Below, piece after piece: positions 6,088 to 29,902 of a DNA stretch of 64,000 nt (positions within the stretch are counted from its first letter, which is position 1; each line of letters opens with the position of its first letter). The DNA comes from Closterium sp. NIES-65. Taxonomy: Eukaryota; Streptophyta; Zygnematophyceae; Desmidiales; Closteriaceae. Position numbers and translations under genes: made by a program. The DNA lies in assembly GCA_948144175.1 (NCBI GenBank), contig CANXME010001990.1:1302001-1366000 (forward strand), given 5' to 3'. The notes below the pieces were generated by a model. It saw nothing but the letters and a program-made list of their open reading frames with translations, had not been told where the DNA came from and made no database searches.

Positions 6088-6159
6088 CCTTAGTTTACGA
6101 GGTGGAGATCTTGGCAGAAGATAATATGGGACGAGACCATCTTGATAGAGTGTAGACCA

Positions 6160-6197
6160 CATCACAAAAATCCTGCATCCGGAAAACCGATGAAAAA
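6160..6197 (+). repeat. Left terminal inverted repeat of element I
   Basis: Starts CATCACAAAAATCCTGCATC. Aligns over about 37 bp, with roughly three quarters identity and one or two gaps, to the inward reading of the right end (29902 back to 29866) and to the left end of element II (48531-48569). Homology starts abruptly at CATCAC; the preceding bases differ at all three ends. Confidence 0.65.
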
Positions 6198-7174
6198 AGT
6201 TGCTTTGGAGTTTTGTCGAATGATTCATGAACGACGTTTTTCGAACGCTTTTATGAGAAAGTATAGGTTGCTTTCCAAATGCTTTCTTGAACGCTTTTCA
6301 AATGCTTCTCCAATGCTTTTCAGTTCAAACCTGCCAGGTGAACACCTTCGAAAGAAGTTTGGTACAAGTTTCCGCAGAGCAATTTCGAAGATCGGATCTC
6401 ATTGCAATGTACTCTTTATGGGATTTCGGGTTCATTAAAATAAGTTTATGTAGGAGACTTGCACGACCTTATATGTAATTTAAAACTATGTTAAGTTGCC
6501 TCAATCTTGCATTACAAATGAACAATACAGAAGCTTTGGTAAAAGCTGATAATTCCACCCTAAAAACGCACATAAAACAGCATCCTAAACCCTCTGTGCC
6601 TAGTCAGTTAGGTTGAGCTGCATCATCCTACGACCTGCTTAGCATGCTCCAGTACACTATGTCTTCCACCGAACCCCATCTTTGGTGCTCTAGGTTGACC
6701 TTGCCCCTGCGTCCACTGCTTCATTGCATGCTCTGCCCTCTCATGCGTCTGCTGCTCCGCCCCTGGCGCTCCCCAGTCATGCCTTTACTGCTGCTTGCTC
6801 CAGTCATGCCTAACCTGCTGCCCCCCTTGTGCACTCCCCTCTATCTGCTTGTGCCTTTTCTGCTGCCCCCCCAACTCTCTCAACTCATGCCTTTTCTGCT
6901 GCACCCTCTTGCACTATCTGGTTGCCTTGCTGGTTGCCCACCCTTGGACACTCCTCACATTGTCTCTACTGCTGCCCCCCTTGCTGACTCCACGCTTTTG
7001 CCGCCCGTGCTACTCCCCATGCTGACTCTACTTTCTTGCCTGGCGTGCTGCCCCCCTAGCTGTCTCCACCAATGCCTCTACCTCCGTTTTGATGTCTCCT
7101 CGCAAGTGTGTGATGCCTATCCTGCTGCCCCCCCTTGTAAACTCCACTCATGCCTCATCTGCTGCCCCCCTTGT
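6198..7174. other. Subterminal region of element I and ORF2 3' flank
   Basis: 6198-6330 contains repeated short motifs such as CGAACGCTTTT, TGAACGCTTTT and CCAAATGCTTT, reminiscent of the subterminal repeats of CACTA-type elements. From about 6640 to 7174 the + strand is pyrimidine-rich with repeated CTGCTGCCCCCC. The long + strand open frame across it is antisense low-complexity reading and not a gene. Confidence 0.45.
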
Positions 7175-7624
7175 TTAGTCGCCCCATCGCTTGACCCTCT
7201 TGCCTCCCCGGCGTTTGCCACTCTTGTGTCTTTTGCCCCTCCTTCGCTCCTGGCCCCCCCCCTTCTCATCCTCATCCTCATCCTCTTCCTCCTCTTCCAC
7301 TTCTTCCTCCTCTACCTCTTCCCTCCTGCTTCCCTTGCCTCCGCCTCTTTTGGGCTTTCTGCCCTTCCTCCTCTCCTGCCCCCTATGATTTTCATCCGCC
7401 TGCTCCCCCTCCTCCTCCTCCTCATCCTCTTCCTCTTCCCCCTTGCTTCCTTTGATTTTCCCTCTCTTCTGCCTTCTGCCCTTCCTAAGCTCCCGCCCCC
7501 CCCGTTCCACATCCTCCTCCTCCTCTTCCTCATCCTCATCCTCTTGCTCATCCCTCTTGCCTCCCCTGCTTTTGCATCTCTTGTGCCTTTTGCTCTTCCT
7601 CCGCTCCTGCCCCCACTGTTCCTC

Positions 7625-7714
7625 CTCCTCCTCATCCTCCTCCTCCTTCTCCTCCTCCTCCTCCTCCTCCTCCTCCTCCTCCTCCTCCTCCTCCTCCTCC
7701 TCCTCCTCCTCCTC
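7625..7714. repeat. (TCC)n microsatellite coding poly-Glu
   Basis: Near-perfect TCC/CTC triplet run on +. On the minus strand it reads as GAG codons inside the last ORF2 exon and encodes a run of about 30 Glu in the acidic tail. Confidence 0.9.
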
Positions 7715-8459
7715 CTGATCCTCGTCATCCTCCTCGTCATCCGTCTTCAAGTCCTCCGCGTCGTACACCTCCTGCTCTTCCTCCTTCAAGTCCTTCTTCT
7801 CCTCGTCAGGCACGGCCTTCCCCTTGAACGCCTCAAATCCTGACTCGTGAACATACAGGCCACGGTCGCCCCACTTGAAGCCCTGCACGACTGTGTTGTA
7901 CACGGGGGTGTGGCGTGTGAAGTGGTCCTTGATAATCCACTGCACATTTCGGTGCAAACCCGTCATCCACTCGGTGTTCTTGCGGTGGGAGTTCGAGACG
8001 TTCCAGTCGGTCTTCTTAACCTTTGCCAAGCCCTGGTCAATCTGAAAAAGCGTAGCAAAGTATGGGAAAGAGGGGAAATAGAGACATATGTGGACACTGA
8101 CGGAGTAGAGTTCACGGGCTGCGCAAATAGCCCCACATTCCAGTCTGGCGGGCAAGAATTGCAAGCAAAGCTAGAGCGAACTGACGGGAGAGCAATAATG
8201 CCTTACCACCATGATTGACCAGGCAATGTGGTAGGCTTTGACGCACACCCGGCGCCCGACACAGAGATTCTGAAATGCTTCCCGGACCGCATCTACAAAC
8301 CGGCCGTTGGCAAACGGGAGCCCGTCTCTGCTGTTTCCCCACGAGCCGACCCGCTGATTCCCTCCTGCGCGCACGCAGGACAAGGCGGGGACGAAGATCA
8401 TGCACGACATGGTTAGGGGTTGTCCAAAGGGTATGGACGAAGTGGAGGGCGGTATAGAA

Positions 8460-8660
8460 TGAATGGAGGGTTGGCTGGAGGGCAGTAGAGCAGGGAAGGG
8501 CGGGAGAGAAGGGGAGGGCAGGGGAGAGGGGGAGGGCAGGAGAGACATGGAGGGCGGGAGAGAAGGGGAGGGCTGAAGAGAAATGGAGGGAGGGAGAGAA
8601 CGGGATGGCGGGAGGGAAGGGGAGAGCTGTAGATTAAAGGGGGGGCGGGAGAAGGGGAGA
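8460..8660. repeat. Purine-rich minisatellite in ORF2 intron 3
   Basis: Degenerate units of about 17-20 bp built on GGGAGAGAAGGGGAGGGC fill part of the intron between exons 9184-8854 and 8364-8207. On the sense (minus) strand it is pyrimidine-rich. Confidence 0.7.
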
Positions 8661-9259
8661 GTGGGAGAAGAACCAACGTTAAGCTGTCATGCGGATGTGA
8701 CTGCACATGCGCTACAAGCCTGGGCAAGGAGAGCAGGTATGTAGTTGCGTGCCACAGTGGGGATGCATTAGGGTAAGTTGTTCATCATCGTCACGAGGGG
8801 TGCACGAGCAGATGAAATGAATGGTGAAGTAAAACAGAAACGCGCGTTCTCACTCGGTTGGTATTTTCTCCACATCTTCTTCTTCTTGGTGCCCATCCAG
8901 AGATCGGCTGCACGCAAGCCTTGCACATTCTTGCCGAAAGTTACAAGCACACTGCGCTTGAGGTGGAAGCCACGATCGTTCTTCCATGACGTCCAAGCGC
9001 GTTTGAAGCCGTTGACGATGTTTTTGTCTTCCATAGCCTCTCGCAGCTGCATCAGCTTAATTATGTGCGTCTCACTGATAACCTGATACAAAACCTGAAG
9101 GCGCTGTTCGAGCGTTGGGTAGAAGTCTATGGCATCATCTGGCCATTCTAGGCACATCCGGTCCCGCCCCACAGCGAAATGAACCTATGACGGACGGGTG
9201 GATTGGAAACGTAAAATTGAGTGATGCCTCCGAATGAAGGGCGAAATTCAGAGGTTGAG

Positions 9260-12200
9260 AGAGAGGGCTGTTGCCATCACTGCGCTGCATGGCTCCCATA
9301 CCAACAACAGCACCATGAACATGGGCTCTGGAAGAGGTGGGGGAGGGATGGGAGAGAGGGTGCAGGGAGAGGAAGGATAGCTGCTATGGTGAGCTATCAC
9401 TCCGCCGCATGACACCCACCCCACCACCAGCACCATGAACAGGAGCTCTGGTTGAGGTAGGGGAGCGATGGTCGAGTGAGAGGGGAGAGAGAGGGGATAA
9501 AATAGTCAGAGCGAAAGACGGGATAGTAGGCAGAGTGAGAGGGCACCGTACGCCCAGCGCGAGGGTCCATCTTCTCCTCGTACGAGGAGTCTCAACTTCC
9601 ACTGCAGCCACCCCCCTGCACGCTACGCCGCATGCCACTCGCGTGACCAGCAGCACCTTTTACAGTGGCTCTGGACGAGGAGGGAGAGGGACGGGATAGA
9701 GAGGGGAGGGAGGAGCGGCGGACAGAAAGGGGGCCGCGTGGGATTGACGGATACGGCTTCCTCTATTCCCTCCGCCGCATGACACCCACACCACCCCCAG
9801 CACCATGAACAGGGGCTCTCGCAGAGGGCGGGGAGGGATGGGAGAGAGAGGGGAGTGAGATGAAGGATGACTTCTATGCTTAGCTATCCTCCGCCACACG
9901 ACATGTATTCCACACCACACCCAGCACCATGAACATGGGCTCTCGCAGAGGGAGGGGAGGGATGGGAGAGAGCGGGGAGTGAGATAAAGGATGACTGCTA
10001 TGCTTAGCTATCCCTCCGCCGCATGACACCCACACCACCCCCAACACCATGAACATGGGCTCTCGCAGAGGGAGGGGAGGGATGGGAAGGATAACTGCTG
10101 CGATTTACGATCACTCCGCCACATGACACCCACCCCACCACCAGCACCATGCACAGGAGCTCTGGTTGAGGTAGGGGAGCGATGCACGAGTGAGAGGGGA
10201 GAGAGGGGGGATAAAATAGTCAGAGCGAAAGACGGGAGAGTAGGCACATTGAGAGGGCACCGTTCGCCCAGCGCGAGGGTCCATGTTCTCCTCGTACGAG
10301 GAGTCTCAACTTCCACTGCAGCCACCCCCCTGCACGCTACGCCGCATGCCACACGCGTGACCAGCAGCACCTTTTACAGTGGCTCTGGACGACGAGGGAG
10401 AGGGGCGGGATAGAGAGGGGAGGGAGGAGCGGCGGACAGAAAGGGGGCTGCGTGGGATTGACGGATACGGCTTCCTCTATTCCCTCCGCCGCATGACACC
10501 CACACCACCCCCAGCACCATGAACAGGGGCTCTCGCAGAGGGCAGGGAGGGATGGGAGAGAGAGGGGAGTGAGATGAAGGATGACTGCTATGCTTAGCTA
10601 TCCTCCGCCACACGACATGTATTCCACACCACACCCAGCACCATGAACATGGGCTCTCGCAGAGGGAGGGGAGGGATGGGAGAGAGCGGGGAGTGAGATA
10701 AAGGATGACTGCTATGCTTAGCTATCCCTCCGCCGCATGACACCCACACCACCCCCAGCACCATGAACATGGGCTCTCGTAGAGGGAGGGGAGGGATGGG
10801 AGAGAGGGGGGAGGGATGGGAAGGATAACTGCTGCGCTTTACGATCACTCCGCCACATGACACCCACCCCACCACCAGCACCATGAACAGGAGCTCTGGT
10901 TGAGGTAGGGGAGCGATGCACGAGTGAGAGGGGAGAGAGGGGGGATACAATAGTCAGAGCGAAAGACGGGAGAGTAGGCACATTGAGAGGGCACCGTACG
11001 CCCAGCGCGAGGGTCCATCTTCTCCTCGTACGAGGAGTCTCAACTTCCACTGCAGCCACCCCCCTGCACGCTACGCCGCATGCCACACGCTTGACCAGCA
11101 GCACCTTTTACAGTGGCTCTGGACGAGGAGGGAGAGGGACGGGATAGAGAGGGGAGGGAGGAGCGGCGGACAGAAAGGGGGCCGCGTGGGATTGACGGAT
11201 ACGGCTTCCTCTATTCCCTCCGCCGCATGACACCCACACCACCCCCAGCACCATGAACAGGGGCTCTCGTAGAGGGCGGGGAGGGATGGGAGAGAGAGGG
11301 GAGTGAGATGAAAGATGACTGCTATGCTTAGCTATCCTCCGCCACACGACATGTATTCCACACCACACCCAGCACCATGAACATGGGCTCTCGCAGAGGG
11401 AGGGGAGGGATGGGAGAGAGCGGGGAGTGAGATAAAGGATGACTGCTATGCTTAGCTATCCCTCCGCCGCATGACACCCACACCACCCCCAGCACCATGA
11501 ACATGGGCTCTCGCAGAGGGAGGGGAGGGATGGGAGAGAGGGGGGAGGGATGGGAAGGATAACTGCTGCGCTTTACGATCACTCCGCCACATGACACCCA
11601 CCCCACCACCAGCACCATGAACAGGAGCTCTGGTTGAGGTAGGGGAGCGATGCACGAGTGAGAGGGGAGAGAGGGGGGATAAAATAGTCAGAGCGAAAGA
11701 CGGTAGAGTAAGCACATTGAGAGGGCACCGTACGCCCAGCACGAGGGTCCATGTTCTCCTCGTACGAGGAGTCTCAACTTCCACTGCAGCCACCCCCCTG
11801 CACGCTACGTTGCATGCCACACGCGTGACCAGCAGCACCTTTTACAGTGGCTCTGGACGAGGAGGGAGAGGGACGGGATAGAGAGGGGAGGGAGGAGCGG
11901 CGGACAGAAAGGGGGCCGCGTGGGATTGACGGATACGGCTTCCTCTATTCCCTCCGCCGCATGACACCCACACCACCCCCAGCACCATGAACAGGGGCTC
12001 TCGCAGAGGGCGGGGAGGGATGGGAGAGAGAGGGGAGTGAGATGAAGGATGACTGCTATGCTTAGCTATCCTCCGCCACACGACATGTATTCCACACCAC
12101 ACCCAGCACCATGAACATGGGCTCTCGCAGAGGGAGGGGAGGGATGGGAGAGAGCGGGGAGTGAGATAAAGGATGACTGCTATGCTTAGCTATCCCTCCG

Positions 12201-12400
12201 CCGCATGACACCCACACCACCACCAGCACCAGGAACAGGGGCTCTAGAAGAGCTAGGCGAGGGATGGGAGAGAGGGTGGAGGGATAGGAAGGATTACTGA
12301 CACAATGAGCTATCCTTGCGCCGCGTGCCACCCACACCAGCACCAGCACCATGAACAGGGGCTCTGGTTTAGGGTGGGAAGGGATGGGAGAGAGGGGCCA
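9260..12400. repeat. Higher-order satellite (about 734-bp unit) inside ORF2 intron 2
   Basis: Monomers of about 100-140 bp, each with a CCGCCGCATGACACCCAC-like box, an AGCACCATGAACA box and a GAGGGATGGGAGAGAG box, are arranged into a larger unit. The same open stretch recurs at 9656, 10370, 11104 and 11838 on the minus strand, spacings of 714, 734 and 734 bp. The array occupies most of the 3.46-kb intron 12644-9185, whose donor (AAG then GTGAGA) and acceptor (CATAG) join exons in phase. The many open frames across it are repeat artefacts. Confidence 0.85.
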
Positions 12401-13829
12401 ATGGAGGATGGATAACTGCTATGGTGAGCTCTGGGTCGGGGGCAGAATGTGAGAGCATCGTATGCTCAGCGCCACGTCCCTGAAGCGAGGCGTACTGGGA
12501 ATGCCTATCCCACTGCAGACATGCCACTATCACTGCGCATAATGCCACAAACACGCTTACCAGCAGCAAGAGGGGTTGAGAGAGAGAGCTGCAGCTATCA
12601 CTGAGCCCCATGCCACACATTGTTTAACACTAAAACAATCTCACCTTCAGCAGCTTGGGTGTGGGCATCCCACGCGTTCGACGGACCGCTACGTCTACCG
12701 TCGCTGGGCTTTTTGGCGCCAGGTCTGGATCGAGGCCCCCTATAGATGGGCCGCTGGACAGAGATGCTAGAGGAGGAGGCCTAGATGGAGGGGTGCAGGG
12801 CTTGACAGCTCCTTTTGATCGTGGCCTTGCCTTGAGTGCAGCGATTTCGCGATCCCGCTGGGCAAGCTCTCGCATGAGCTGCTCCACAGTCCTGCCGCCA
12901 GCCACATCCGGCCGACTGGATGCGCCAGGTGTGCCCATGCTCTCTCCCCTCCCCTCCTTAGTCGCTGGATCCATTTTCTCGTCCCCCCCTTCTCCCCTGC
13001 TCTCCCGTATATCCCACATGGAGCCTTCCACACTGCCGCCACATTCACCCAAGGCATTCGCCCACACACCTCCCAGACCGTCATTCGCTGCTGCAGCTAC
13101 CGAGGGTTCGTGCCACTTCGTTGCCCCCTTGTTCTTCACATGAACCGCGCGACCCCCCATATGGTTGGGGGGCGGGTCCGTCGTTTCTTTGCCAAACCGC
13201 GCTGACCCCCAAGCCATCTGATCTCCCTTCCCAGCCGAACCCCTCGGATCGCGTAACGCAGCGTACGGGTCCGCGGCTTGCCGTTCATGAGAGCTTGATG
13301 GACATCGTCTCCCCATTGATTCGTAAAAATTCAACTCCCGCTTCGCCTTGCTACGCACACCCACTATTTTAGCTTCGAATCAAGGTCTCTGGCGCTTGCC
13401 TTGTGGTTTGGCACGACGCACACTCTGTTTACAGATCTTTACCCGTCCCCTCTCCGACTTTTGCTTAGCATTGCCCTTTTTGAGCTTCCTCACACTCCTC
13501 CTCTGCAAAGGCCGAGCCTCCTCCCCATCCTCGCTCTCCGGCTCCAACTCCTCATCATCCTCGTCCTCCTCCTCCTCAACCTCGTCCTCGTATACCTCCT
13601 CACTCCCGGATGAGCTGCCCGACTCACTGTCGCTCGAATCTTCCTCGGAACCAGACGAGCTCAAAACGTGCACATTGGGGCCGCGCCGAGCTTGTCTCGC
13701 CTTATGGTCGCAACTGCCCAGATCCACAGCCTTGCGCCGTTGGTAGGGAATCACAGCTTCACGTCCACCTTTCCCATCAGTCACAGCTGCTGGCTCGTCC
13801 TCATCATGATCGTTAACGCCACGGCATGC

Positions 13830-14419
13830 AGGCACGGCATGATCCTTCTCGTCGCCACCATCCGCATCCTGCGTCTGCCTGCCCGAGGGACCGCCCTTAG
13901 CCGCGGCAGCCCTGCCGCCGTTGCGCATGCTGCCACCACGAGCTTCCGGCTCGGCATGATCCTTATCGTCGCCACCATCCGCATCCTGTGAGCCCGAGGG
14001 ACCGGCCTTGGCCGCGGCAGCCCTACCGCCGTTGCGCATGCCGCCACCACGAGCTTCCTGCTTGGCATGATCCCCCTCGTCGCCACCATCTGCATCCTTC
14101 GACTGCCTGCCCGTGGGACCGCCCTTAGCCGCGGCAGCCCTGCCGCCGTTGCGTATGCCGCCACCAGTAGCTTCCGGCTCGGCATGATCCTTCTCGTCGC
14201 CACCATCCGCATCCTGCGAGTCCGAGGGACCGCCCTTGGTCGCGGCAGCCCTGCCGCCGGTGCGCTTTCCGCCACCACGAGCTTCCGGCTCGGCATGATC
14301 CCCCTCGTCGCCTCCATCCGCATCCTGCGACTGCCTGCCCGAGGGACCGCCCTTGGCCGCGGCAGCCCTGCCGCCGTTGCGCTTTCCGCCACCACGAGCG
14401 CGTTGGCCTGCCGTCCCAT
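13830..14419 (-). repeat. Five coding repeats in ORF2 exon 2
   Basis: Units of 110-118 bp recur at 13837, 13953, 14063, 14181 and 14292, anchored on GGCATGATCC of the + strand. On the coding strand each encodes a GGRAAAAKGGPSG-type basic patch followed by a DADGGDE acidic patch. The unit lengths differ but the frame stays open, so the repeat is under coding constraint or recently amplified. Confidence 0.8.
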
Positions 14420-15098
14420 CTGCGAAGGCGGACATGACAGGTACATAAGATATAAACAATATAGAGGGAGTTGCAGCATGACATGCGGCGTCATTGTTAT
14501 GAGTAACGTGCAAAATATAAAGCGTCGATATCACACCCACAGCGTACCTAAGCTGTCAGGTCCCCCGTCTTTGCCCTCCTCGTCGCCTTCACACGCAGGC
14601 GTTTCCTCACGATGTGAACGAGTGCCTCTTTTTCTTGGACGGTGCTTACAGCCCCCCCGGTTGTCTCGCTTGTCCGCTATCGCTGATGCGGAAACACAAT
14701 TGGAGAGACGATAACCTCCAACAGGTCAGACACGACTACAAGCATCAATTCATGCATACAAGTAGAATATTCCGCATCTGCGACCATAAACACATACCTT
14801 TCTGGCCGCCTTTGGGAACGAGATCATCTAAGCGCTTCACGCGCTTATCCCTTGGTTTCGAAGGGGATGATATGCCCTTGTTTGCGTATGGCTCCACCTC
14901 GCAGTCGCTATTCGATTCGTCACCGGATGACGAGACACGTCTGGCCCCAACAACATCTCGCGACGTCGACGCATTATTTTTGCGATACTCGATTACGAGC
15001 TCGGCCGTCTTATCTGCTGTTACTAACTCGCCAAAGTTTGTTTCGTCGGGGGTTTTAGTCGATTCAGCCAGTACGATCGCCCCCTCGGGCCCCTTCAT

Positions 15099-16061
15099 TG
15101 TCTGATTTCCTTGTTACCATGTCTAGCTTTCCATTCACGCAGTACTATGAGGTTGCGGGTTGTGCTAACGCCTAGAACCTGACAGCAGTCTACAAGCATA
15201 AGAAATTGGTTGAGGAGGGTGAGGGACGAGGCAAAGTCTGGGGCCTAGAGCAGGCGATCGTCACATCTGGAGGCATGCAAGGGGAGCACGGAGGTGATGA
15301 GGGTTTGAGTGTTTCCTGCTATGGTGCACGTTGCGACTGCCAGGTCCCCCATTTCCGCCCTCAACCAATCGCCTGAGGGTTGAGGGGTATAAAGGAAAAA
15401 AATGCAGCACTGCCGTGTTAAGATTTCGTGGGACCTAACGTGCTTAATTGAGTATCAGTCCACAAGCGGCAGGGTGGGCTTTTTTTTGTTAAACCCGACA
15501 GTCAAATGCGCTACTGTATCTGGGTTCGCGAGGGTCATAATTATTCTGCCCGGGTTGTCGTACTGTTTACAAATAAGTGCCTCGCGTGCCACACAAACCT
15601 ACACAAGCTGGCACGTCAAGGGTCACATAGGGTCTGCGGAGAAACGGCGACGCTCGATCGCAGCAAGTCGTACAGCGATGCGACAGGTCGACACGAAGCC
15701 GTTGCGGCACGTCTGCGATAAAAACGCAGACTCAAAAGTTCCTTGTGTGTGGTTGCGACTGGTTCGCAAATCAGGGAGGTTCGCGTACGTGGCATAGCGT
15801 GGAGTCAAGTGGAATGGCGCAGGGCGGGGCACGTAATGGCACATTAGTTTGCAAAGCCTCAATAGTGTGGTGTACCTACATGTTAAGAGTGGAATTAGGG
15901 GGTTATGCAGTTGTAAGCAAAATCTCGTTTTCCTTACTTCGCATCCCTGCTAAACGCGTCCATCACTGTAGCACCTCAGTCAGCACCGTTACCACTCGCA
16001 TCGACAATCCGCCCGCCACTTTCGCACGTCGCACCCCGACCTCACGGCGAGGGCTGACGAT
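15099..16061. other. Intergenic part of element I upstream of ORF2
   Basis: No gene is recognised. It is the 5' flank of ORF2 (start at 15098) and should hold its promoter. Open frames here are short and without motifs. Confidence 0.4.
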
Positions 16062-16081
16062 ATCAGGGTAATTACCCTGAT
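16062..16081. repeat. 20-bp perfect palindrome, possible hAT-type end
   Basis: ATCAGGGTAATTACCCTGAT is its own reverse complement, and a second copy of its half, TTTCAGGGTGATTACTGG, follows directly. CAGGG starts are common in hAT terminal repeats, and a hAT-like gene begins 580 bp downstream. A matching right end was not found, so the link is only suggestive. Confidence 0.4.
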
Positions 16082-16660
16082 TTCAGGGTGATTACTGGCT
16101 TACGACTTGGTGGTCCGTCCAAACACAGGTTGTGTATTTTGTGAACTCTGGTGCTATCAGAGTAGATACTTAACGGACTCTGAATTCTTGTAACTAGGCT
16201 CAGGGTAGTGTACATGCCGACTCTGTCCATGCAGAGTATGCGTAATAATGACAAAGGACACCACTTACGTGCTGTACATCACAGCTGGCAACCACGCCAA
16301 CGCAGCCAACTCAATGAGACGGTGCAGCCACGCGCACCGCACAGTGCACAGCATGTATCTGCCATTGGCTAGAATGGCCTGTAGACAGCATGCGGTGGCA
16401 GCCAAGGAGTCCTTGAATGAATTCGGCCTTGAATGCAAGGACGAATTCATCTAGGAATGTTGCCATCAAGTTCGTGGAATCGCGGCGCGGTGGTTTCGTG
16501 CTCCCGCCATCTCCAACCTCCCCTTCCCTCCCCATACCAGCAGCCAACGTTCCTTTGTTCACTAGTGTGTTATTTCCATTACGTGCCTTCATTGTCCCAT
16601 TTTTCTCTCGTTCAAAGGGTTTACTAACAAACCATAATATTTGTTCTCTGCTTTACACAG

Positions 16661-18252
16661 TGAGGCGTTGGCTGTGAAGGACGCCGCTGAGTCAAACCCG
16701 GATCTCGACATGGTCGACAAGGTGGTGCGCACTGTGGCAACTCTGCTCGGAAACTCCAGCGTGTGGAGTCAGCGGTTCAAGTACCTGCAGCGTGTGATTT
16801 ACAAGACCAACCTGGAAGTCCAAGGCATACACACGGTGCGGTGGCTGTCTCGAGGAGATGCGGTGGCCAGGCTGTGCAAGGTCCTCGGCGCTTGCATCGT
16901 TCTGCTCTGGGAGCACAATCACAAGGCGTACGAGACTGTTACCTGCTACAAGTTTCAGTTCTGCTTGTTTTTCTTGGCCGACATCTTGGCGGACATGAAC
17001 GACCTCAACCGCTGCTTCCAGAGACGAGAGGTGAGGTCGCATGTTTGTATGATGTTGCTACGTGAGGTTCGTAACTGCACTGTTGCTCATCCTTCTCCCT
17101 TTTGTCTACCCCTGCTCTGCCACAGCTGGACGTGACAGAGATTGCGAAGATGATCGAGTCCACAACGAGTGACCTGGTGGAGCGCTACTTGACGCCAGAG
17201 AAAGCTTACGAGCTCGGAGGGAAGAGCTGGCTGGTGAACTTCCACAAAGTCCACAAGGAGGGTGGAGGCAAGCAGGTCCGGGTGCGCGGCGTGGACGGTG
17301 CTGGGCGCCCTATCAACCACCTGTACACCATGCATGAGCGGAAGCTGAAGGGGCACAAACACGGAAGCACCTACGTAGACTGCGTGAAGCTAAGCTACAT
17401 ATTCGCCCGTGACTGCGTGGACAACCTCACCAACCGACTGGATGAACTTGGGAAGCTGGGGCCGACGAAGCTGTTCCGGGCGGGCAAGTGGCCGAAGATC
17501 AAGGCCCAGCAAGAGAAGAAGTGTAAGGAGTGGCTGAACGGGTGCAGCAAGTTGTTCCGCAACAAGCTGCCGGGATTCGACATCAAAGTAGCAGAGAGGG
17601 AGCTTCCAACCTTCAGCGCGATCATGGAGGCACACCATGAGATGGAGAGCTTCACCCAGGGCCTGTCCAACTTCCTTGGGAGCGCAGAATCCAAGAGGTA
17701 GCCTTTACTCTGCGTCCATGGGTTTTACAATCTTGTAGATTGCTAACTAATTCCGTTGTGTCGCATGTGCCTGGCAGGAGATGGCCCAACCTCATCATGC
17801 TGTGGCAGGCGCTGGCTGTGCTCCCTCTCTCCACCGTGGAGTGCGAGAGGGGGTTCTCCAGGCAAAACGTCATCAAGTCCTGGGCGCGAGGAGCGCTGTG
17901 CAACGCGCCTCTGGGGGAGCTGATGCAGATATCGCTCCTCAAGTATGAGATCGACTGGCCGGAGGCACTGGAGGTGTGGAGGTCCCTGCGTACTAGGCGC
18001 CCTGCGAAGAGCTTGAAGCTGGCTGTAGCAGAGAGGGAGAGGAAAGGGAAGCAGAAGGAGGGTGAAGATGTGGCTGCTCAAAATGCCTGGGAGAATGAGG
18101 ATGAGGAGGAGGAGGAGGAGGACGATGAAGTGGAACAGGCCTTTGACGACGATCAAGAGATTGTGGGGGAGGAGGAAGTGGAGGACAGTCCATTCCTGTC
18201 GGACGATGAGGATGTGGAGGAGGTGTACTACATAGACAAGCCCGTGCACTAG
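16661..18252 (+). pseudogene. hAT-superfamily transposase, N-terminally truncated
   Basis: Three exons, 16661-17030, 17126-17697 and 17778-18252, have GT/AG borders and agreeing phases. The last exon contains the hAT dimerisation signature (WPNL, then LPLSTVECERGFSRQN, then LMQI) and ends in an Asp/Glu-rich tail of about 60 residues. In hAT transposases this C-terminal region mediates oligomerisation needed for cut-and-paste transposition. The first visible exon begins inside the protein. No zinc-finger N-terminus and no first catalytic Asp were found upstream, so the gene is 5'-truncated or its early exons are too diverged. The visible exons have no stop. It lies between the protease and ORF2 of element I, on the opposite strand, so it probably inserted there. 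A domesticated or decaying copy are both possible. Confidence 0.7.
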
Positions 18253-19030: not shown

Positions 19031-19044
19031 GATCTTGTCCACAT

Positions 19045-20880
19045 TCCCCCATGATACCCGCTTCCATGTTCTTCACTCACACACTTATTCCTCCCACGTA
19101 CCCGCCTCACCCCCTCCTGCTTCCCGCCTCATTACCTCTGCTTCCTGCCACATGTCCCCTCGCTTCCGGCCTCATCCCCCCTTGCTACCCACCCCATTCC
19201 CCCTTGCTTCCCACCCCATTCTTCACTGCTACCCTCCTCATTCTCCCTTGATACCCTCCCCATTTCCCCTTGCTTCAGGCCTCATTCCCCCTTGCTTCGG
19301 GCCTCATACTCACTTGCTACCTCCCTCATTCCCCCTTGCTTCACAGCCGCGTCCCCCTTGCTTCCTGCCTCATTCTCCCTTGCTACCCCCCGCATTCCTT
19401 GTGCTTCCCGCCTCTAGTCCCCTCGCTTTCGGCCTCATTCCCCCCTGCTACCCACCCCATTCCCCCTTGCTTCCCACCCCATTCTTCACTGCTACCCTCC
19501 TCATTCTCCCTTGATACCCTCCCCATTCCCCCTTGCTTCAGGCCTCATTCTCCCTTGCTTCAGGCCTCCTTCCCCCTTGCTTCGGGCCTCATACTCTCTT
19601 GGTACCTCCCTCATTCCCCCTTGCTTCACAGCCACGTCCCCCTTGCTTCCTGCCTCATTCTCCCTTGCTACCCCCCGCATTCCCTGTGCTTCCCGCCTCT
19701 AGTCCCCTCGCTTTCGGCCTCATTCCCCCCTGCTACCCACCCCATTCCCCCTTGCTTCCCACCCCATTCTTCACTGCTACCCTCCTCATTCTCCCTTGAT
19801 ACCCTCCCCATTCCCCCTTGCTTCAGGCCTCATTCTCCCTTGCTTCAGGCCTCCTTCCCCCTTGCTTTGGGCCTCATACTCCCTTGCTACCTCCCTCATT
19901 CCCCCTTGCTTCACAGCCGCGTCCCCCTTGCTTCCTGCCTCATTCTCCCTTGCTACCCCCTGCATTCCCTGTGCTTCCCGCCTCTAGTCCCCTCGCTTTC
20001 GGCCTCATTCCCCCCTGCTACCCACCCCATTCCCCCTTGCTTCCCAACCCATTCTTCACTGCTACCCTCCTCATTCTCCCTTGATACCCTCCCCATTCCC
20101 CCTTGCTTCAGGCCTCATTCTCCCTTGCTTCAGGCCTCCTTCCCCCTTGCTTCGGGCCTCATACTCCCTTGCTACCTCCCTCATTCCCCCTTGCTTCACA
20201 GCCGCGTCCCCCTTGCTTCCTGCCTCATTCTCCCTTGCTACCCCCCGCATTCCCTGTGCTTCCCGCCTCTAGTCCCCTCGCTTTCGGCCTCATTCCCCCC
20301 TGCTACCCACCCCATTCCCCCTTGCTTCCCACACCATTCCTCACTGCTACCCTCCTCATTCTCCCTTGATACCCTCCCCATTCCCCCTTGCTTCAGGCCT
20401 CATTCTCCCTTGCTTCAGGCCTCCTTCCCCCTTGCTTCGGGCCTCATACTCCCTTGCTACCTCCCTCATTCCCCCTTGCTTCAGGCCCCAATCCCCCTTT
20501 GCTTCCCGCCTCATTCTCCCTTGCTACCCCCCCTCATTCCCCTTTGCTTCCCGCCTCATGTCCCCTCGCTTCCGGCCTCATCCCCCCTTGCTAGCCACCC
20601 CACTCCCCCTTGCTTCCCACCCCATTCTTCACTTCTACCCTCCTCATTCTCCCTTGCTACCCCCCTCATTCCCTCTGCTTCCCGCCTCTAGTCCCCTCGC
20701 TTCTGGCCTCATTCCCCCCCTGCTACCCACCCCATTCCCCCTTGCTTCCCACCCCATTCTTCACTGCTACCCTCCTCATTCTCCCTTGCTTCAGGCCCCA
20801 TTCCCCCTTGCTTCGGGCCTCATTCCCCCATGCTTCCCGCCTCATTCTCACTTGATACCCGCCCCTTTACCAGCTTTTCA
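19045..20880. repeat. Satellite with 285-bp higher-order unit
   Basis: Built from 20-24 bp pyrimidine-rich subunits (CATTCCCCCTTGCTTC, CATTCTCCCTTGCTAC and variants). The order of subunits repeats every 285 bp; identical open-frame starts fall at 19533, 19818, 20103 and 20388. It begins about 60 bp beyond the C-terminal exon of the Ulp1-like gene and separates it from the hAT-like gene. Long open + frames across it are artefacts of a stop-free repeat. Confidence 0.9.
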
Positions 20881-22109
20881 CCGCCGCCTGCCCCACTTCC
20901 AACCTCCAACATTGTTTTTGCCCGAAAATACACAGACCACTTCCTCAAATCGTGACGGTACTGACGGCGCCAATGGAGTGGCGTCCCTACAAGCTCACAT
21001 GCCGGTAGTTTATGGAAACCATCCTCGACCAACGTGTGCATCACACGCATCGTGAACACACCACAGTCGTTCTCATTTGCCTGCACGGGTATCTGGACAA
21101 TAACAGGGTGCGTGAGCGCGTGGTGAGGGCCGGGACGGGAGTGGGGTTTCGGTGTGGAAATTGCGTGCAGGGAAAGGGAGATGCGATTGTTTCAAAGCTC
21201 GTGCACACAAGGCAACAGCACTCACCGTGACCTGCCTTAGTGGGATGCTTGCCGCCCATGCATCTGCGTCCGACTCACTGATCCATGCACAGTATCTTAA
21301 CACCTCGTTTTGCAAGTACCTACACACCGGGAGACATAGATTCAATGCTATCGTAACCCCGAACTTCTGTACGTGACAATAGCAGACTGCCATTAAAAAG
21401 AGAGTACCTTCGCAACGGGGCATCGACACCGGCATGCGTGCCGTACGAGTCAGCGTGCCAGAGCACACAGTTCATGGGTATCGGGTCGTCGGGCCTCGGG
21501 ATGCGCTCGATCACGATCAGGCTCCAGTGACTCCTAAGGCACACATGAGGTCTAACATCAGTAACGCCAATGACTACAGAAATAAAAGATAACCCGGCTA
21601 CGGCTAGACGCGACGACTACTCACTCGGTATTTATCGGAACGAGTACATATGTGAAATCGAAAATACCCAGGCCGAAAGTATAGGCGTTTTCACGCCGCG
21701 AAATGTCCTTCTTAGCATATTCCTAGAAATATGATCCACTGTAAAGCCATTTCTTGCTGTCGCGACCGTGTTCGTACTGCAGCATCCTGCGCACGCGCGT
21801 ATTTGCGACAAAGGAAACGCATGAGATAACCGTGACGAATCTGGCCTTTTGATTTCCTAACCGTGATACTCACACACCGAGCCAATCAATTACGATCCCG
21901 CTGACCCATTCACCGGGTCGTAGCCTGTCGGCGTGTTCCACGTTTATGTCGAGCCAGCCTCCGCCGTAGGGAAAGGGCATAGAAATCGGCTGAAAGGACA
22001 GCTTACCATCTAAACACGGTAGAGCCATGGCTAGAACTTTGACGACCTCAAGATGCGTGTGGCAATAGGGATAATTTGGAGGACGAGCACCGAACTGGAA
22101 TTTGGGCTT
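20820..22109 (-). pseudogene. Ulp1/C48-type cysteine protease of element I
   Basis: Exons 22109-21874, 21786-21625, 21533-21408, 21319-21226 and 21092-20820 splice in phase to about 297 codons; further 5' exons were not identified. Domain landmarks follow Ulp1 peptidases: EWVSGIVIDWL (substrate-side motif), YVLVPINTE, then HWSLIVIE with the catalytic His, WHADSYG with the catalytic Asp, and ENDCGVF with the catalytic Cys. Ulp1 enzymes cleave SUMO-like tags; in transposons the target is unknown. A TAG at 21723-21725 replaces a Trp codon (TGG) kept in the element II copy, so this copy is broken by one stop. Three internal exons have exactly the same lengths (162, 126, 94) as in element II. Transcribed away from the transposase across 22110-23033. 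Confidence 0.8.
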
Positions 22110-23033: not shown

Positions 23034-26000
23034 ATGAAAGGCCAGAAGTGTGGCTGTGGATACGTTGCCTTCTGCTATCAGACCCTTAGGAGCCACCAAG
23101 TAAATGGCGGGGAAGTCTGCAAGCTCAAGCAGAAACGTAAGCTGGTTTTCAAGCAGCCGATTCCGAAACACTGGAGGCTGGGCGGGGCTTCAAATCCTGG
23201 CGCCATTTTAAACCTAGCACCACTTCCTCGTCCGTATCCGCAGCTCCCACTGATAGGAAACGCGTACCCAAATGTCACGCCATCAGAACCGAGCGAACAA
23301 GTGAGGCAGATCGCGGAGGCGACTTGCGAAGGCACGGTTGTCATGGAACCTGATGGTGAAGACGATCCGATAGACTTGAAGGCCGAAATTTGCATTTTAT
23401 CACGGAAGCACGGCCTTACGAACGGGGCTATAACGGACCTTATAGACCTGTTCCAAATTCCAGACCTTGATATCAAACAGCTACAAGGCTGGACGACCTA
23501 CAGAGACCTTGAAAAGTACGAGAGCAACTTCGAGTTGGGACCGGAGCAGTCGTGGCGAGTTTTGGAGATTAAAGTGGATCATGAAGTGGGATTCCTCACC
23601 TTCAGATGTCGCGATATTATCGTGGTGCGTCCGTCGCAACATAATGTGCACCTTGTATGTGTTACTACCTTTGTAACACGGCCCAAGCTGTTTCTGCTGC
23701 GCCCCTTACCAGTCTCAAGTCGTAGTCGACAACTCATATCTTCACTGCTTCCACTAGTACGCACCGATAAACCCAATTCCCATCCCTCTCTGCAGTTGGC
23801 GCAGGCAATGTTCAAGAAGATGTCCGCAGTACGCGGATTCATCATCGAGCCGAAGGAGTGGAAGGTGGAGGGGGAAAGGCGCTACAGCACTCCCGGCAAC
23901 ACGGACTGGATGCTAAAGGCTTGGGTTAGTTGGCATCCAAAGCGCGATGTCCTTTGTCATGGAATCTCTGTCGCACTAGCTCGTTGTTCGTCACCCACCA
24001 CGGTATTTTCCTCTCTTGAAAGGGGAGATGACCCGCATTTGTTATCTGAATCCGACCTTTTGCTCGCTGATGTCCCGCTGTTTGCTCGCTGATTTTGTCA
24101 TTTTGCTCCCTAATCTCTGCCCTGTGCTGGCTGATCTTGTCTCTTTTCTTTATAATCCCCGCCCTCTGCTCGCTGATCTCCTGACGTTTGGTGGCTGATT
24201 AAGACCCTTGTGCTTGCCAATCTCCCGCCCTTTGCTCACTGACTACGACCATATGCTCCACGAGCTCCATTATTTGCTATCAAATCTCCGCCCGTTTCTG
24301 TCCGATCTTCCGCCCTTTGCTCTCTCACTCCCTTCCTTTAACTCCTCGATCACCCACACTTTGCTCATTTGCTCTCCCGCCCTTTGCTATCTGCTCTCCC
24401 CTCTCTGGTGCTCTCTGATCACCCGCTCTTCACTCTCTGATCTCCCGCTCTTTCATCTCTCTTCTTAGCGTGAAGCTCCCTAATCTTCGCGTCTTGCAAT
24501 CTAGAGCCCATGACTGTTGCAATATGTCACTAATCTCGTGATTTCTGGCCATCGCTTTCGCTCCCCAACCTTTTGATCATTTTGTAACTCCACACATTCA
24601 CTTTGATTCCTGCCCCGTGATCTCTTTCTTGTCCCCGTGCTCTATCCCCTTACTCATTTGTTCACCTAACCATACTCTATGCTCTCACACATGACAGGAC
24701 CGCGTTCGTGCCGTCGGTGCGATCGTGTTGGCGATCATTCTCTATTCGGATCAAACTAACTTGTCTCACAATGGCAGACAATTAGCACACCCGTTCGTCC
24801 TGTCATTCGGTAACACACCGGAATGGGCGCGTTGGTTGGAGGGCGGCACAGAGCTGGTGGGCCTCTTCCCTAACATTCCCTCCGACCTGAAGCCAGAGGA
24901 GAAGATTAGGGTGTTCCAGCTAGCGGCTGAATACATGCTACAGCCGCTGAAACACCTCTCCAAGCTCCGCGGGTACGCTGCCCTTAATCTCATATGCTAC
25001 AATCCTGCGCCCATGTCATAGTTTTGTGCATCATACGTGTGTGAAACCACCATGCCATGTATTGCGTGTGCGGATAAATTGGAGTGCATATTTGAATTGC
25101 TGCCCCTATCGGTTCGGTAACGAACAACCCCTTTGCACATTGCTGCCATGCTGTCAGTCTGGTTTCCTCACCCTAAAACCACCATATTGGCATGGTTCCA
25201 TGTTTGGTTGTGCAGCGGGGGTTTGAAGGTCGAGGACAGCAACGGGGTTGAGTACTTGGCCATCCCGCTGCTGTACTCAGTCGTGAACGACCATCCCGAG
25301 TCTAGCAAGGTCTCATGCACCATGTCATGTAGCTCCTACCGACCTTGCTCCATCTGCATGGTTACGCGAGAAAATCTTCGAGACGTGGATGACAAGATCG
25401 TTCCTCGAACCGTGAAAGATCAGAAAGCCGTGTACAAGCTAATGGAGGAAGCGGACACCAAGAAGGAATTGACCCGTCTGAAGAAGAAGTATTCTATCCA
25501 CTTCGTGAAGGTATCACTTCTTGTCCGTTTTTGTTGGTTTGACGCCGTGGTCCCGTAGTCCCACCCCTATATCCTCCCACCGCACTTGGGTCTAAAATGA
25601 ACTATCCCGCCCCCACTGCCCATTTGTCAACCCCACGCTCAAAACGCCCATGCCTCCACATCAACTCACGTCGCCACCTCCTCGTCGTGTTGGAGGTGGA
25701 CACCTCGCCATGTTCCACCCTTGGACAGGCACGCACCCAAACCTCACATGATCCCGCCCTCGTTCAGCAAATCCCTAAACCCCCACCCTATCCTTGCTGT
25801 CCGTACAGTCCACACACATACCCTCCCCCTACCCCGCCCATCCTAGTTCTTGGCACACAATCCCACCCTGGTCGTTTTTTTCCCTATTCTTCATTCAAAT
25901 CCCCAAAGGGGCCAATTTTCCCATTCCGCGTGCCTCCCCTTGCGGCCAGTCATTGCTGTGGGATTGGGAGTTCTCCAAAACCAAGTGGGGCAACACGTAC

Positions 26001-29000
26001 CTCGCCCAGACACCTGACATCATGCACATCATCGAGGCAGGGCTTTGGCTTCATGCAATGAGGTGCCTCGTGAAGAAGTTGAAACCGTCAGAGCGAAAAA
26101 TACTTCTCGAGTAAGTTTCCCTTTTCCCCCGGTGGGGCGAGAGTCATACGTGCAAGAGAAAGAGGCATCGAGGGGGAACCAGAGGGATTGAGAGGGGAAG
26201 AGGGGCAGCGAGGGGGAAGGTTGCACTTAGAGAGACGGAGAGTGGGGCAGAGTGTTGCAAGAAGTTGGACAGAGAGGGGGAATTCGGGGCAGAGAGATGG
26301 AAGGAGGGGCAGCCGGAGGGAGGGTAGGGCGGTGGTGTGGAAGGAGGGGCAGGGATGAGTGAATGCAGGGCACAGAGAAGGAGGAAGAGTGAGGGAATTT
26401 GTAGCAGCGTTGGAGGGATGCGGGGTGGAGAGAGGGGGAAGTGGTGCAGAAAGAGGGAATTTGGGACAGAGACGCTGAGGGAGGGGCACCATGGGGGAAG
26501 GAGGCGCTGCGAGCAGGAAGGTGGGGCTGCTAGCGGGAAGGAGGGGCATAGAAGGGGGAGGGGGGGGGGGGGGGGGGGGGTTGGTCGTGTGAGGTGAACG
26601 CGGGATTCAGAATAGTGTCTCGGGGCATAGGGACCGCATGGGGGTAATGTAGGAGTAAAATTGGGCAGAGAGTAAGGGAGATTGCGGCTGGGAGAGGGCA
26701 AGTGGGGCAGAGTGAGGAAAATGGGGGCCTGGAGAAAGAAATTGGGACCGAGCAAGGGGAAATTGGGGCAAGGGGAGAGAACGAGGGGCGGAGAGAGGTG
26801 ACCATGGGGCAAAGCGAGGGAACAAGGGGCAGAGAGAGGAATGATGAGGCATAGAGGCTGGGGGAGTGGGGCAGAGGACGGAAAGGGATTCACTGAGAGG
26901 GAGGCAGCGGGGAGATGATGTGCGATTTGATGCACCTAACTACTAGACCATCCCGCCAGCCCCACCCCTCTCCCGCCCCCCTCCCTAACCCACCCCACCG
27001 GCCCCACACAAACCCTAAACCGATACCCTTACTGCATCCCGTACGTGCAGACGCTACAAGATTCTCAAGGCAGTGACTCCTGCGTCTTTGCTGAGACTCC
27101 CATCCGCATGGGCGTACTTCACCACGACGGCCTGCTTCTCAGCGTCGGAGCATCGTGCCATGATGCAAGTGCTGCCCCTCATCATCGACCTCCCCAAGCG
27201 CGCCGATATTCGACATGCCATCACGCTCATGTCGGACTGGTACAAGGAGTTTATCCGGGCTGAGTATCACACCGATGCCACGCTTGAGCGCATGGAGGAG
27301 GTCTCCTGCGAGTAAGTATAGCGTGAATGGGTGTGGGTGCCATGCGCATAGGGAACGAGGGACAGTGAGATGGCTGAAGGGGTCGAGGGAGGGATTAAGA
27401 GGCAGTGTGTGGGAAATAGGGTGCAGAGAACGGGGGAAAAAGGGAAAAGATAAGGAAAGGGGGTAAAAGCGAGGGAAAGAGGGGACGAGGGAGGGAAAGA
27501 GGGGACGAGGGGGGGGAAGAGGGGACGAGGGAGGGAAAGAGGGGACGAAGGAGGGAAAGAGGGGAGGGGGGGGAGGGAACGATGGGCTGTGGACTGTTCC
27601 GCATGCGCTAAAAAAGGGAAGGAGGGGCATAATGACAACAGGAGGGGCTTAGAGTGGGGGAATGGAGTGGCAGAAACATGGAAGCTGAGTTGTGAGTGGG
27701 TGGGGGGGGGGGGGGGGGAGATGAGAGGAGGGGGGAGGGTCTGAGAGAGGGTAGTAGTACATGAACCCGGGTATGGGGCATTGTATGTTGTTTGTGGCTG
27801 AATTGTTGTTTATATGCTTACGCACGCTAAACCGATCCCCAACACCCAATGCCCCAATTCCGAACCTTTCAATCCACCCAAACACGTCCTATCCAGGATG
27901 GTCGATGCGCTTGTTCTAGCATTCGACAACCAGAAGTCGAAGTGGCTTATTATCAAGGTGCATCTTGTATCGCACCTCCCGCCGACGATCCGTGCACGGG
28001 GATTGCCACACGAGTACTCGTCGAACCGGTACGAGCAGTCCCACAAGACAACAGTGAAGCGCCCTTCTCGCGGCACCAACTGGAAGGGTGTGGAGGATCG
28101 CATTGTGAAGAAGCATATCGAGCAAGCCGTTGTTCGACAGCTGTCTCGAGCCTCCGGCGGGGACAAAACATACGAGACAGCCATGAAGGAGGTGAGCATA
28201 AGTAACGACCTAATGCCAATCTTGCCCACCAATGTTCCCCGCCTGCTCCTGCCGCATGAAACCCTCATCACCTCTTCCCTTCCTCCCGCTGCCCCCCTAG
28301 ACATCCCTTCTAGCATCCACGTGCTCACCATCATGTCCACCCATGAAATGCCTCTACCGCTGCCCCCCTTGACATCCCGTTTTGCATCTACATGCTCGCA
28401 TTCTTGTCCACCCATCGCTCCTTCCACTAGCTGCCACCCTTAACATTCCGTCTTGCCCCACATGCTTTCCCACTTAACCACCCATGCCCCTCCCCCGGCC
28501 CCCGTGGGACTATCCGTCGTTCAGCCCCCAATGCTTCCCTACTAATCCACCATATACCTTCGTGCTGCTAAACACGTCGCCCCCTCGGTTCCCCCCCCCC
28601 CCCCATCCTCCTCCATGTCCATCCCCGGCACTTCCCATTCCCTCCTGCCGTTTGTCTTTCCTTTGCTCTCCCTTGATCTACACTTGTCCACCTATGCTCC
28701 CTCCTCTTGCTGCACCCTTTGACCTCTGGAACTGCCCCGCTATACTAACCGACTAGTCCCTAATCTTTGCTCCCTCTCACTGCTGCCCCTGTTGTACTCA
28801 AGTGCTGCCCCTCTCCTGCTGCCCCCCATGTACACCATGCACCCATCACCCTCCTACCCAGGCTTGCACGCTTGGGCGTCGGGTGCTGACTAAGACACAC
28901 AAGAAGATGACCGTGGGGCAGATCACGGATGATGTGTTCAGGAGCTATGTCCTTGTTCACGAAGATGAAGCGATGGGCTACTTGAAGAAGCGGCTGGCCA

Positions 29001-29622
29001 GGGAGGGAATTCACGACCAAGTGCTCAATGTGAGAATCAATATGGTGCTCAATGCGGGAGAATCAATGTGAGAATCAACTGCCACTGCCACGTAGACCTG
29101 TTAAACGCGGACCATCAACCTCCTTAATGGGCCGAACCCAGGCATGGCACCCTGTTGTATCCACGCACCCGTCAGCACCCCATTGTCTCAACCCTAACAC
29201 AAACTTCTATTGTTGTGCTGCAACCCCTGCTTGCCTATTCGCAGGTGCACACTGCCATGGCAATCCCACCGCACAACAGGATGGAGTGGACCGAGAAGGG
29301 CCAGTTTGTCAAAGCAAGCCCTTCCGACAGGCACTTTTCAGATGTAGCCATAAATCCAGCTGGCAAAGGGGCCAACTGGTACGGCCGCTGCTTGATGCTG
29401 TTCCATTACGTGAAAGATGGCGTGGCAAAAAAAGCCGCCTACATCGAGTACTACACGGAGGATCGGCGAGTCTGCCGGTACACTGGCTGCAAACGACTGT
29501 TGCCCACGAAGGGCACCTTCAACTATGCAGTTGTAGATGCAGATTGCATTCTTAGCATCGTGCATGTTGTCCCGTGCTGCAAAGACCCTGCTGTGAAGCT
29601 GCTCAATAGGTTCATCTGGTGA
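23034..29622 (+). CDS. Plavaka-like (CMC/CACTA-type) transposase, intact when spliced
   Basis: Nine exons, 23034-23624, 23796-23924, 24698-24972, 25216-25510, 25950-26110, 27051-27311, 27897-28191, 28862-29029 and 29245-29622, have GT/AG borders and consistent phases, and total 851 codons including the stop, with no internal stop. The protein opens with a zinc-finger-like C..C..H..C cluster. Exon 3 has SDQTNLS and the GNTPEWARW block, typical of Plavaka-type transposases; exon 5 has TPDIMH; exon 6 has SEHRAMMQVLPLI. The Asp of SDQ, the Asp of PDIMH and the Glu of SEHR are my candidates for the DDE triad. It would excise and insert element I at its CATCAC ends. The element II copy (49029-55490) shares all splice sites. 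Oddity: the first Cys pair is CGC here but CEFC in the other copy. Start chosen at the first ATG in frame, aligned with the other copy. Confidence 0.85.
24010..24470. repeat. Pyrimidine-rich degenerate array in transposase intron 2
   Basis: Units of about 20-24 bp such as TTTGCTCGCTGATCTCCCGCCC vary strongly along the intron between exons ending 23924 and starting 24698. Confidence 0.7.
26130..26900. repeat. Purine-rich degenerate array with G21 run in transposase intron 5
   Basis: Loose units of 30-45 bp with GGGGCAGAGAGAGG-like and AGGGGGAA boxes fill intron 26111-27050. An uninterrupted run of 21 G lies at 26560-26580. Here the sense strand is purine-rich, opposite to intron 2. Confidence 0.7.
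27430..27595. repeat. 20-bp minisatellite in transposase intron 6
   Basis: Units of GAGGGAAAGAGGGGACGAGG with small changes repeat about five times. A further 17-G run lies at 27702-27718 in the same intron (27312-27896). Confidence 0.8.
28192..28861. other. Transposase intron 7, pyrimidine-rich, no array
   Basis: Spans donor GTGAGC to acceptor CTACCCAG. It is C/T-rich with scattered CTGCCCCC and CATGCT boxes but no clear period. The homologous intron of element II (50792-52193) is filled by a 62-bp repeat instead. Confidence 0.6.
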
Positions 29623-29626
29623 TGCA

Positions 29627-29632
29627 AATAAA
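29627..29632 (+). promoter_or_regulatory. AATAAA poly(A) signal candidate of the transposase
   Basis: AATAAA lies 5 bp after the TGA stop (29620-29622). It is unusually close to the stop, so a downstream signal could be used instead. Confidence 0.4.
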
Positions 29633-29865
29633 GTAGCAACTATGTCAATTTACCATAACCTTCTTTGATTGTGAAACAAGCTTTTAAGCCACCTTATTAT
29701 TGTCTCAACAATTAACATCTAACAAGCATTCCATTGTAACACCGCGAAACCATTACTAAAACATCACCAAAACGTTTGGTCTGACAAGAATGCTATACAA
29801 ACGATTCGTAAATGATTCCTGGATGATTGTCAAACGATTTTCAGAAGCTTGCTTAAAAAAAAAAT
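29633..29865. other. Subterminal region of element I, right side
   Basis: AT-rich, non-coding. It carries repeated short motifs around ACGATTCGTAAATGATTCC, TGATTGTCAAACGATTTTC and CAAAACGTTTGG, similar to the CGTTTGACAA repeats inside the left end of element II (48585-48640). Confidence 0.5.
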
Positions 29866-29902
29866 GGTCAGATGATTTCCAGACGCACACATGTTTGTGA
29901 TG
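29866..29902 (-). repeat. Right terminal inverted repeat of element I
   Basis: Reading inward on the minus strand from 29902 it begins CATCACAAACATGTGTGCGT and continues with TCTGGAAATCATCTGAC. It matches the transposase-side end of element II at 48531 closely (TCTGAAAATCATCTGAC shared with one change) and the opposite end at 6160 more loosely. Confidence 0.7.

Follow-up and report, generated by a model that had tools for sequence, protein, structure and literature searches.

A PlavakaB-like transposon of about 24 kb with linked transposase, Ulp1 and ORF2 genes in Closterium sp. NIES-65

Introduction

Do three genes that lie between inverted ends in the desmid Closterium sp. NIES-65 form one mobile unit? 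The question is raised by a stretch of 64,000 nucleotides (assembly GCA_948144175.1, contig CANXME010001990.1, positions 1,302,001 to 1,366,000), here called the window. A sequence-only reading by a model had placed a Plavaka-like transposon at 6160-29902 of the window, with a transposase gene, a Ulp1-type protease gene and a further gene, ORF2. We analyzed this element and its copies in the genome. The transposase, Ulp1 and ORF2 genes are linked between two ends and travel together in many copies. The ends, the length of the target-site duplication, the transposase motifs and the profile match fit the PlavakaB lineage.

Ends and target sites of the element

The element and its borders in the window are as follows.

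6160 to 29902, about 24 kb: whole element, window copy; in order the left end, ORF2 (- strand), Ulp1 (- strand), Plavaka transposase (+ strand) and right end
6158 to 6159, no strand: left copy of the target-site duplication, CA, equal to 29903-29904; a single CA stands at the related empty site
6160 to 6185, + strand: left terminal inverted repeat, beginning CATCACAAA; from window repeat analysis and genomic copies
6160 to 6409, + strand: left subterminal array, five AANCRTTYR boxes on the - strand; box scan
29653 to 29902, - strand: right subterminal array, four AANCRTTYR boxes; box scan
29876 to 29902, - strand: right terminal inverted repeat, ending TTTGTGATG; from window repeat analysis and genomic right ends
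29903 to 29904, no strand: right copy of the target-site duplication, the same dinucleotide CA as on the left

The sequence CATCACAAA is exactly inverted at 6160-6168 and 29894-29902, and an imperfect likeness extends over 26-27 base pairs (bp). Within the window alone, the similarity past the first 9 bases had a shuffle p of 0.018, and 19% of the 10566 exact inverted 9-mer pairs lying 3-40 kb apart extend equally well. Because these window-only statistics are weak, genomic copies were used to decide. Six regions were fetched, and in the three that reach the left end homology to the window begins at 6160, 6160 and 6158. At the right it stops at 29902 with GTGATG in all 17 plus-strand right-end loci (13 minus-strand loci were left out of this count). 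The flanks beyond differ, bar those of three loci (L022, L023 and L029) with one flank in common. The element ends, CATCACAAA...TTTGTGATG, are exact, and both the coordinates and the inverted ends first read from the window stand unchanged.

Nine of 15 both-ended copies (C1660 left out) have a 2-bp target duplication, compared with about one of 15 expected by chance; none of the 15 has a 3-bp duplication. Searching the genome with joined flanks recovered related element-free loci. The empty site related to that of the window copy (74% identity) has a single CA across the junction, and the one related to the C1807 site (79% identity) a single GG. At the C1845 site the junction is blurred in all three related element-free loci, and no clean empty site was found. 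The sequence-only reading had expected conserved ends, short duplications and empty sites; the ends, nine duplications and two empty sites were found, but not a clean C1845 site or a duplication in the remaining copies.

The first 250 bp of the left end contain five instances of the pattern AANCRTTYR; the right end contains four, and the end of a diverged second element in the window (see below) three. Over 1249 other intervals the background averaged 0.026 and reached at most 4 per 250 bp, though the pattern was derived from these same ends and the counts are descriptive only. The boxes are candidate binding sites for the transposase or ORF2.

Linkage of the three genes among genomic copies

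We searched 874 Mb in 2400 contigs for copies. This genome also gave 146 matches to the light-harvesting family, some of them on the contig of the window, as expected of a plant or alga. The last transposase exon with the right end gave at least 41 matches, 40 of them at 97-100% identity over all 658 bases and one further partial match at 84%. This is a lower bound, since scoring covered 40 of the 134 first-look candidates. For the left end there were 41 matches. The linkage test drew on 40 places for each of four features (left end, right end, Ulp1 and ORF2); one left-end second piece, the 84% partial right end and 23 short Ulp1 pieces were dropped.

A same-strand right end lies within 45 kb downstream of 16 of the 40 left ends listed and upstream of none of the 40; one was paired with an opposite-strand right end. 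In 15 of the 16 both-ended copies ORF2 lies 1.4-1.9 kb from the left end, followed by Ulp1 and then the right end, all on the same strands as in the window. The sixteenth, C1154, is an internally deleted copy of 8.5 kb that retains only the ORF2 part. Two of the 16 have an incomplete left end (C1965 by 7 bases, C1660 by 199). Nine measure 20.5-24.5 kb, with a full range of 8.6-42 kb.

ORF2 and then Ulp1 follow in order at 27 or more of the 40 left ends listed. At least 36 of the 40 right ends have, on their inner side and no more than 30 kb away, a Ulp1 oriented as expected; for 24 of them the distance is 8.9-9.4 kb (Ulp1 exon-5 places from a protein search, plus one from another Ulp1 search). 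Among the matches listed, the right ends without an inward Ulp1 are those of C1154, C2002, C729 (3.9 kb from the contig start) and one on C1660. Seven right ends also have a Ulp1 outside or differently oriented. The sequence-only reading had proposed that the three genes form one mobile unit, an idea to be given up if copies bounded by CATCAC ends never contained the protease and ORF2; 15 of the 16 contain both.

Thirty right ends have a mean pairwise identity of 98.2% (range 96.8-100%), from which we conclude that the family was probably active recently.

Other arrangements were also seen. Five left ends of the family lie within 62 kb on C2230 (about 1.24-1.32 Mb); for four of these, Ulp1 is just some 6 kb off and no ORF2 is among the matches listed; this cluster consists of shortened derivatives. 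Outward-facing right-end pairs 25-36 kb apart (C1692:170346-202033, C1965:2619574-2655481 and C1660:451358-476720) are inverted element pairs. Eight loci of other Plavaka families (L001-L008, 30-36% identical to one exon) showed no Ulp1 or ORF2 piece in flanks too short for their ends. A scan of viral contigs found no relative. A PF02902 profile search of the genome gave 12 matches, a search that was insensitive, probably because the exons are short.

The transposase, Ulp1 and ORF2 genes

The gene models are as follows.

23034 to 29622, + strand: Plavaka transposase gene, 9 exons, 849 amino acids, stop-free; gene model and Plavaka profile match; exons 23034-23621, 23796-23924, 24698-24972, 25216-25510, 25950-26110, 27051-27311, 27897-28191, 28862-29029 and 29245-29622
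20820 to 22028, - strand: Ulp1/SENP-type cysteine protease gene, 5 exons, 267 codons; gene model, profile and PDB matches; exons 22028-21874, 21786-21625, 21533-21408, 21319-21232 and 21092-20820
7175 to 15098, - strand: ORF2 gene, 6-exon model, 1188 residues, 3' exons found in 16 of 16 both-ended copies; exons 15098-14798, 14682-14548, 14419-12645, 9184-8854, 8364-8207 and 8041-7175

The plus-strand transposase at the right, as first read, is a Plavaka protein. Its exon borders are GT-AG, its frame is open in the window copy, and residues 174-465 of the spliced protein match Pfam Plavaka (PF18759) with E 6.5e-22 and 78.6 bits (cut-off 26.3). By eye, the alignment has D257, D356, C375-x2-C378, H592-x3-H596 and E609 or E616, of which the D and E residues are putatively catalytic. 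All of these are identical in the diverged second copy. The C(2)C and H(3-4)H motifs lie between the second D and the last E, a feature of the Plavaka/CMCT clade.

The minus-strand Ulp1 is a stand-alone gene model and a predicted Ulp1/SENP (C48) SUMO protease, in agreement with the sequence-only reading. It matches PF02902 (E 1.4e-9) and, in PDB, SENP7 and SENP2. By eye, HWSL, WHADS and QANENDCG place the family His, Asp, Gln and Cys, so that the C48 profile is joined by the His-Asp-Cys triad and the Gln; the triad positions in this model are those we take to be catalytic. About 1 kb separates the starts of the Ulp1 and transposase genes, which lie on opposite strands and probably have a promoter region in common.

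ORF2 had been described as an acidic coiled-coil gene on the minus strand. The gene is real but larger than that, with its six exons running from 15098 to 7175. By eye, the protein contains five tandem repeats, each about 37-39 residues long, as well as stretches of acidic and of basic residues, a segment resembling a coiled coil and an E/KR-rich tail, and a part in the last three exons is kept between copies.

Between diverged copies the transposase has a ratio of nonsynonymous to synonymous differences per site (pN/pS) of 0.33 and Ulp1 one of 0.42, with synonymous sites saturated in both. Compared with the copy on contig C1847, ORF2 has a pN/pS of 0.49 and a corresponding substitution-rate ratio (dN/dS) of 0.33; its four segments give dN/dS of 0.34, 0.21, 0.64 and 0.27. 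These values suggest that the amino-acid sequence is constrained in all three genes, with ORF2 the least clear case.

Related elements and repeats in the window

The sequence-only reading had mentioned neither two related elements in the window nor an extra block inside the 24-kb element. These features are as follows.

48531 to 64000, - strand: second element, diverged, inverted and running off the window; terminus, protein and shuffle comparisons
48531 to 48566: its transposase-side terminus, identical to the right end at 32 of 36 terminal positions
49029 to 55490, - strand: its transposase, same exons, 40-79% amino-acid identity
56182 to 58300, + strand: its Ulp1, divergent
about 60454 to 62030, + strand: its ORF2; segment comparisons
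45360 to 48530, + strand: fragment of a third element, probably truncated by the second at 48531
about 48500 to 46056, - strand: last ORF2 exons of the third element; tblastn E 3.5e-5, 23% identity to the ORF2 of the window copy
45360, + strand: tentative left terminus of the third element, CATCTCAAAAATC; end comparison
16049 to 18319, + strand: extra transposase-like block of open frames between Ulp1 and ORF2, in some copies only

The second element repeats the divergent layout of the window copy. The first segment of its ORF2 scored above all 2000 shuffles against both the window copy and the copy L044, the second only against L044; against the window copy, 147 of 2000 shuffles were as good as the second segment. 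The third element was probably cut when the second, a member of the same family, inserted into it at 48531. Three in-frame stops (in Ulp1 exon 2 of the window copy, and at about 56690 in Ulp1 and about 52900 in the transposase of the second copy) replace a tryptophan of a related copy, as G-to-A decay would give.

The frames at 16049-18319 presumably resemble a hAT transposase in its C-terminal half. No hAT model was matched, whether the sequence was taken exon by exon or joined, and a search around 16-18 kb for an 8-bp target duplication with inverted repeat of hAT type found none. The block is absent from the C532 copy and present in C926, which rules out an insertion private to the window copy. 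Left-end-to-Ulp1 spacing is 12.1-14.7 kb in six copies, 9.7-11.7 kb in many others and wider or about 6 kb in a few; the wider spacing in the six suggests a subfamily carrying the block, which was seen by sequence in the window and C926 copies only. The element looks as if part of another transposon had been captured.

Minisatellites fill introns and spacers at 9.2-12.4 and 19.0-20.8 kb (22-bp units in the latter), and by eye also lie at about 49.2-50.8, 57.0-58.0 and 62-64 kb. Copia-type frames (RVT_2) lie between the two Plavaka elements at 31774-32745 and 37019-41197, the longest also carrying rve and gag_pre-integrs.

Proposed mechanism and alternative explanations

The element is very probably a cut-and-paste transposon of PlavakaB type that carries three genes and would move in the following way. 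Excision and reinsertion by a DDE transposase is the established mode of such elements. Here the transposase would bind the AANCRTTYR subterminal boxes, pair both CATCAC ends, excise the unit and then reinsert it. ORF2, with its basic clusters, acidic tracts and coiled coil, may bind element DNA or chromatin like TnpA of CACTA or VANC of VANDAL elements. The stand-alone Ulp1 could take SUMO off the transposase, ORF2 or host silencing proteins, favoring expression or transposition. By analogy with VANC and KIU (PMC13317346), Ulp1 and ORF2 may aid expression or mobility, perhaps against silencing.

A bolder version, which we put forward only tentatively and think somewhat doubtful, makes Ulp1 and ORF2 a dedicated counter-silencing module. 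ORF2 would be a new family of element-specific chromatin binder, Ulp1 would desumoylate host repressors at the element, and a 24-kb Plavaka would so stay active in a large photosynthetic genome. Such a module, if real, would be to Plavaka what TET/JBP is to fungal PlavakaB and VANC/KIU to VANDAL. Ulp1 recurs alongside different transposon lineages, which suggests that they have a need in common, perhaps against silencing linked to SUMO; a high-copy family whose copies are 97-100% identical makes this idea testable.

Several observations weigh against the transposon and its proposed mechanism. Six of the 15 both-ended copies have no matching 2-bp duplication, one of them being C1965 with its incomplete left end. 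The flank common to three loci suggests that some places may be haplotype or segmental duplicates, and a single site may have been counted once for each of its haplotypes. The Ulp1 of the window copy has one in-frame TAG in exon 2 (21786-21625), and its ORF2 one in-frame TGA. The second element has a broken transposase (stops and a lost splice acceptor) and a Ulp1 broken by a stop, and the box scan found no subterminal boxes at the tentative left end at 45360. Profile searches, which the sequence-only reading had proposed for all three proteins, matched the transposase and Ulp1, but no domain was significant for ORF2 in Pfam or PDB sequence searches. One ORF2 segment of 52 codons has the dN/dS of 0.64.

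Ulp1 and ORF2 might instead be host sequences that were captured passively by transduplication and play no part in transposition. Capture of Ulp1 has occurred repeatedly among the MULE and CACTA elements of plants (PMC2528002, PMC13317346), and both genes are broken in the window copy. However, they are kept as multi-exon genes in diverged copies with fewer amino-acid than silent changes, the catalytic H, D, Q and C of Ulp1 are present, and a near-identical sibling Ulp1 on contig C1847 reads through the exon-2 stop position. We regard passive capture as unlikely. Much less probable still is an ordinary EnSpm/CACTA element; Plavaka and EnSpm transposases have motifs in common (PMC12730594), but the ends here are CATCA rather than CACTA, the duplication is 2 bp rather than 3 bp, and the Plavaka profile is matched. 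That unrelated nested transposons piled up and left three genes as chance neighbors is the least credible reading. In its favor, nested elements abound in the window: Copia-type RVT_2 frames lie at 31.8-41.2 kb, the second element adjoins a piece of ORF2 at 48531, and Ulp1 and ORF2 are separated by an additional transposase-like block. Against it, order and strand are the same in 15 of 16 both-ended copies and in the diverged second copy, and at least 36 of 40 right ends have the inward Ulp1; the counts from both-ended copies and right ends refute this reading.

Comparison with known systems

The cut-and-paste PlavakaB-type transposon can be set beside several described groups. The earlier labels "Plavaka-like" and "CMC/CACTA-type" were right and can be sharpened to PlavakaB, with its CATCA..TGATG ends and 2-bp duplication. 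The narrow-sense EnSpm/CACTA features, CACTA ends and a 3-bp duplication, are absent from the ends and from all 15 copies, and the 2-bp duplication differs from the 8 bp of Zisupton (KDZ). No paper on Ulp1 with Zisupton was found in the literature searched.

That Ulp1 domains occur in some large DNA transposons, as the sequence-only reading stated, is published for CACTA elements (CACTA-ULP), among them the Cactavine families in grapevine and, in rice, proteins that contain both Tnp2 and ULP1 (PMC2528002). Like the Closterium element, these combine a CACTA-type transposase and a Ulp1 domain within one element; they belong to the classical CACTA lineage, and the accessible part of that report holds no ORF2 of the present kind. 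In KI-MULE/Kaonashi and KIU-VANDAL elements Ulp1 also runs in reverse to the transposase and is tied to escape from silencing, whereas the transposase is of MULE type, the elements are non-TIR (without terminal inverted repeats) and Ulp1 lies inside the VANC gene (PMC13317346, PMC2528002). The giant repeats of Amoebidium are likewise very large units with a Plavaka transposase, but are intron-poor gene clusters of up to 50 kb with many tyrosine recombinases (PMC11244446).

The green alga Auxenochlorella is reported to have Plavaka-type elements (PMC12636532), so Plavaka outside fungi was already known. The literature searched yielded no Plavaka element with Ulp1 and ORF2; most subscription papers and Repbase lay outside it, and a database entry for this family may exist. 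The Ulp1 pairing has precedent in CACTA (PMC2528002); the combination of Plavaka, Ulp1 and ORF2 is new within that literature. It adds a further case of a CMC-type transposon carrying a SUMO-protease gene, kept together with a large ORF2, and provides boundaries and gene models for an approximately 24-kb repeat that host annotation could mistake for ordinary genes.

The closest likeness is to PlavakaB of fungi, which has CATCA..TGATG ends and 2- or 3-bp duplications (Kojima 2025, PMC12730594). The Closterium element has the same ends and a DDE transposase with C(2)C and H(3-4)H, and like some fungal members it carries an extra enzyme gene. The fungal passenger is a TET/JBP dioxygenase, whereas here it is Ulp1 with ORF2, and the diagnostic PlavakaB ends described in fungi are now found in a photosynthetic eukaryote.

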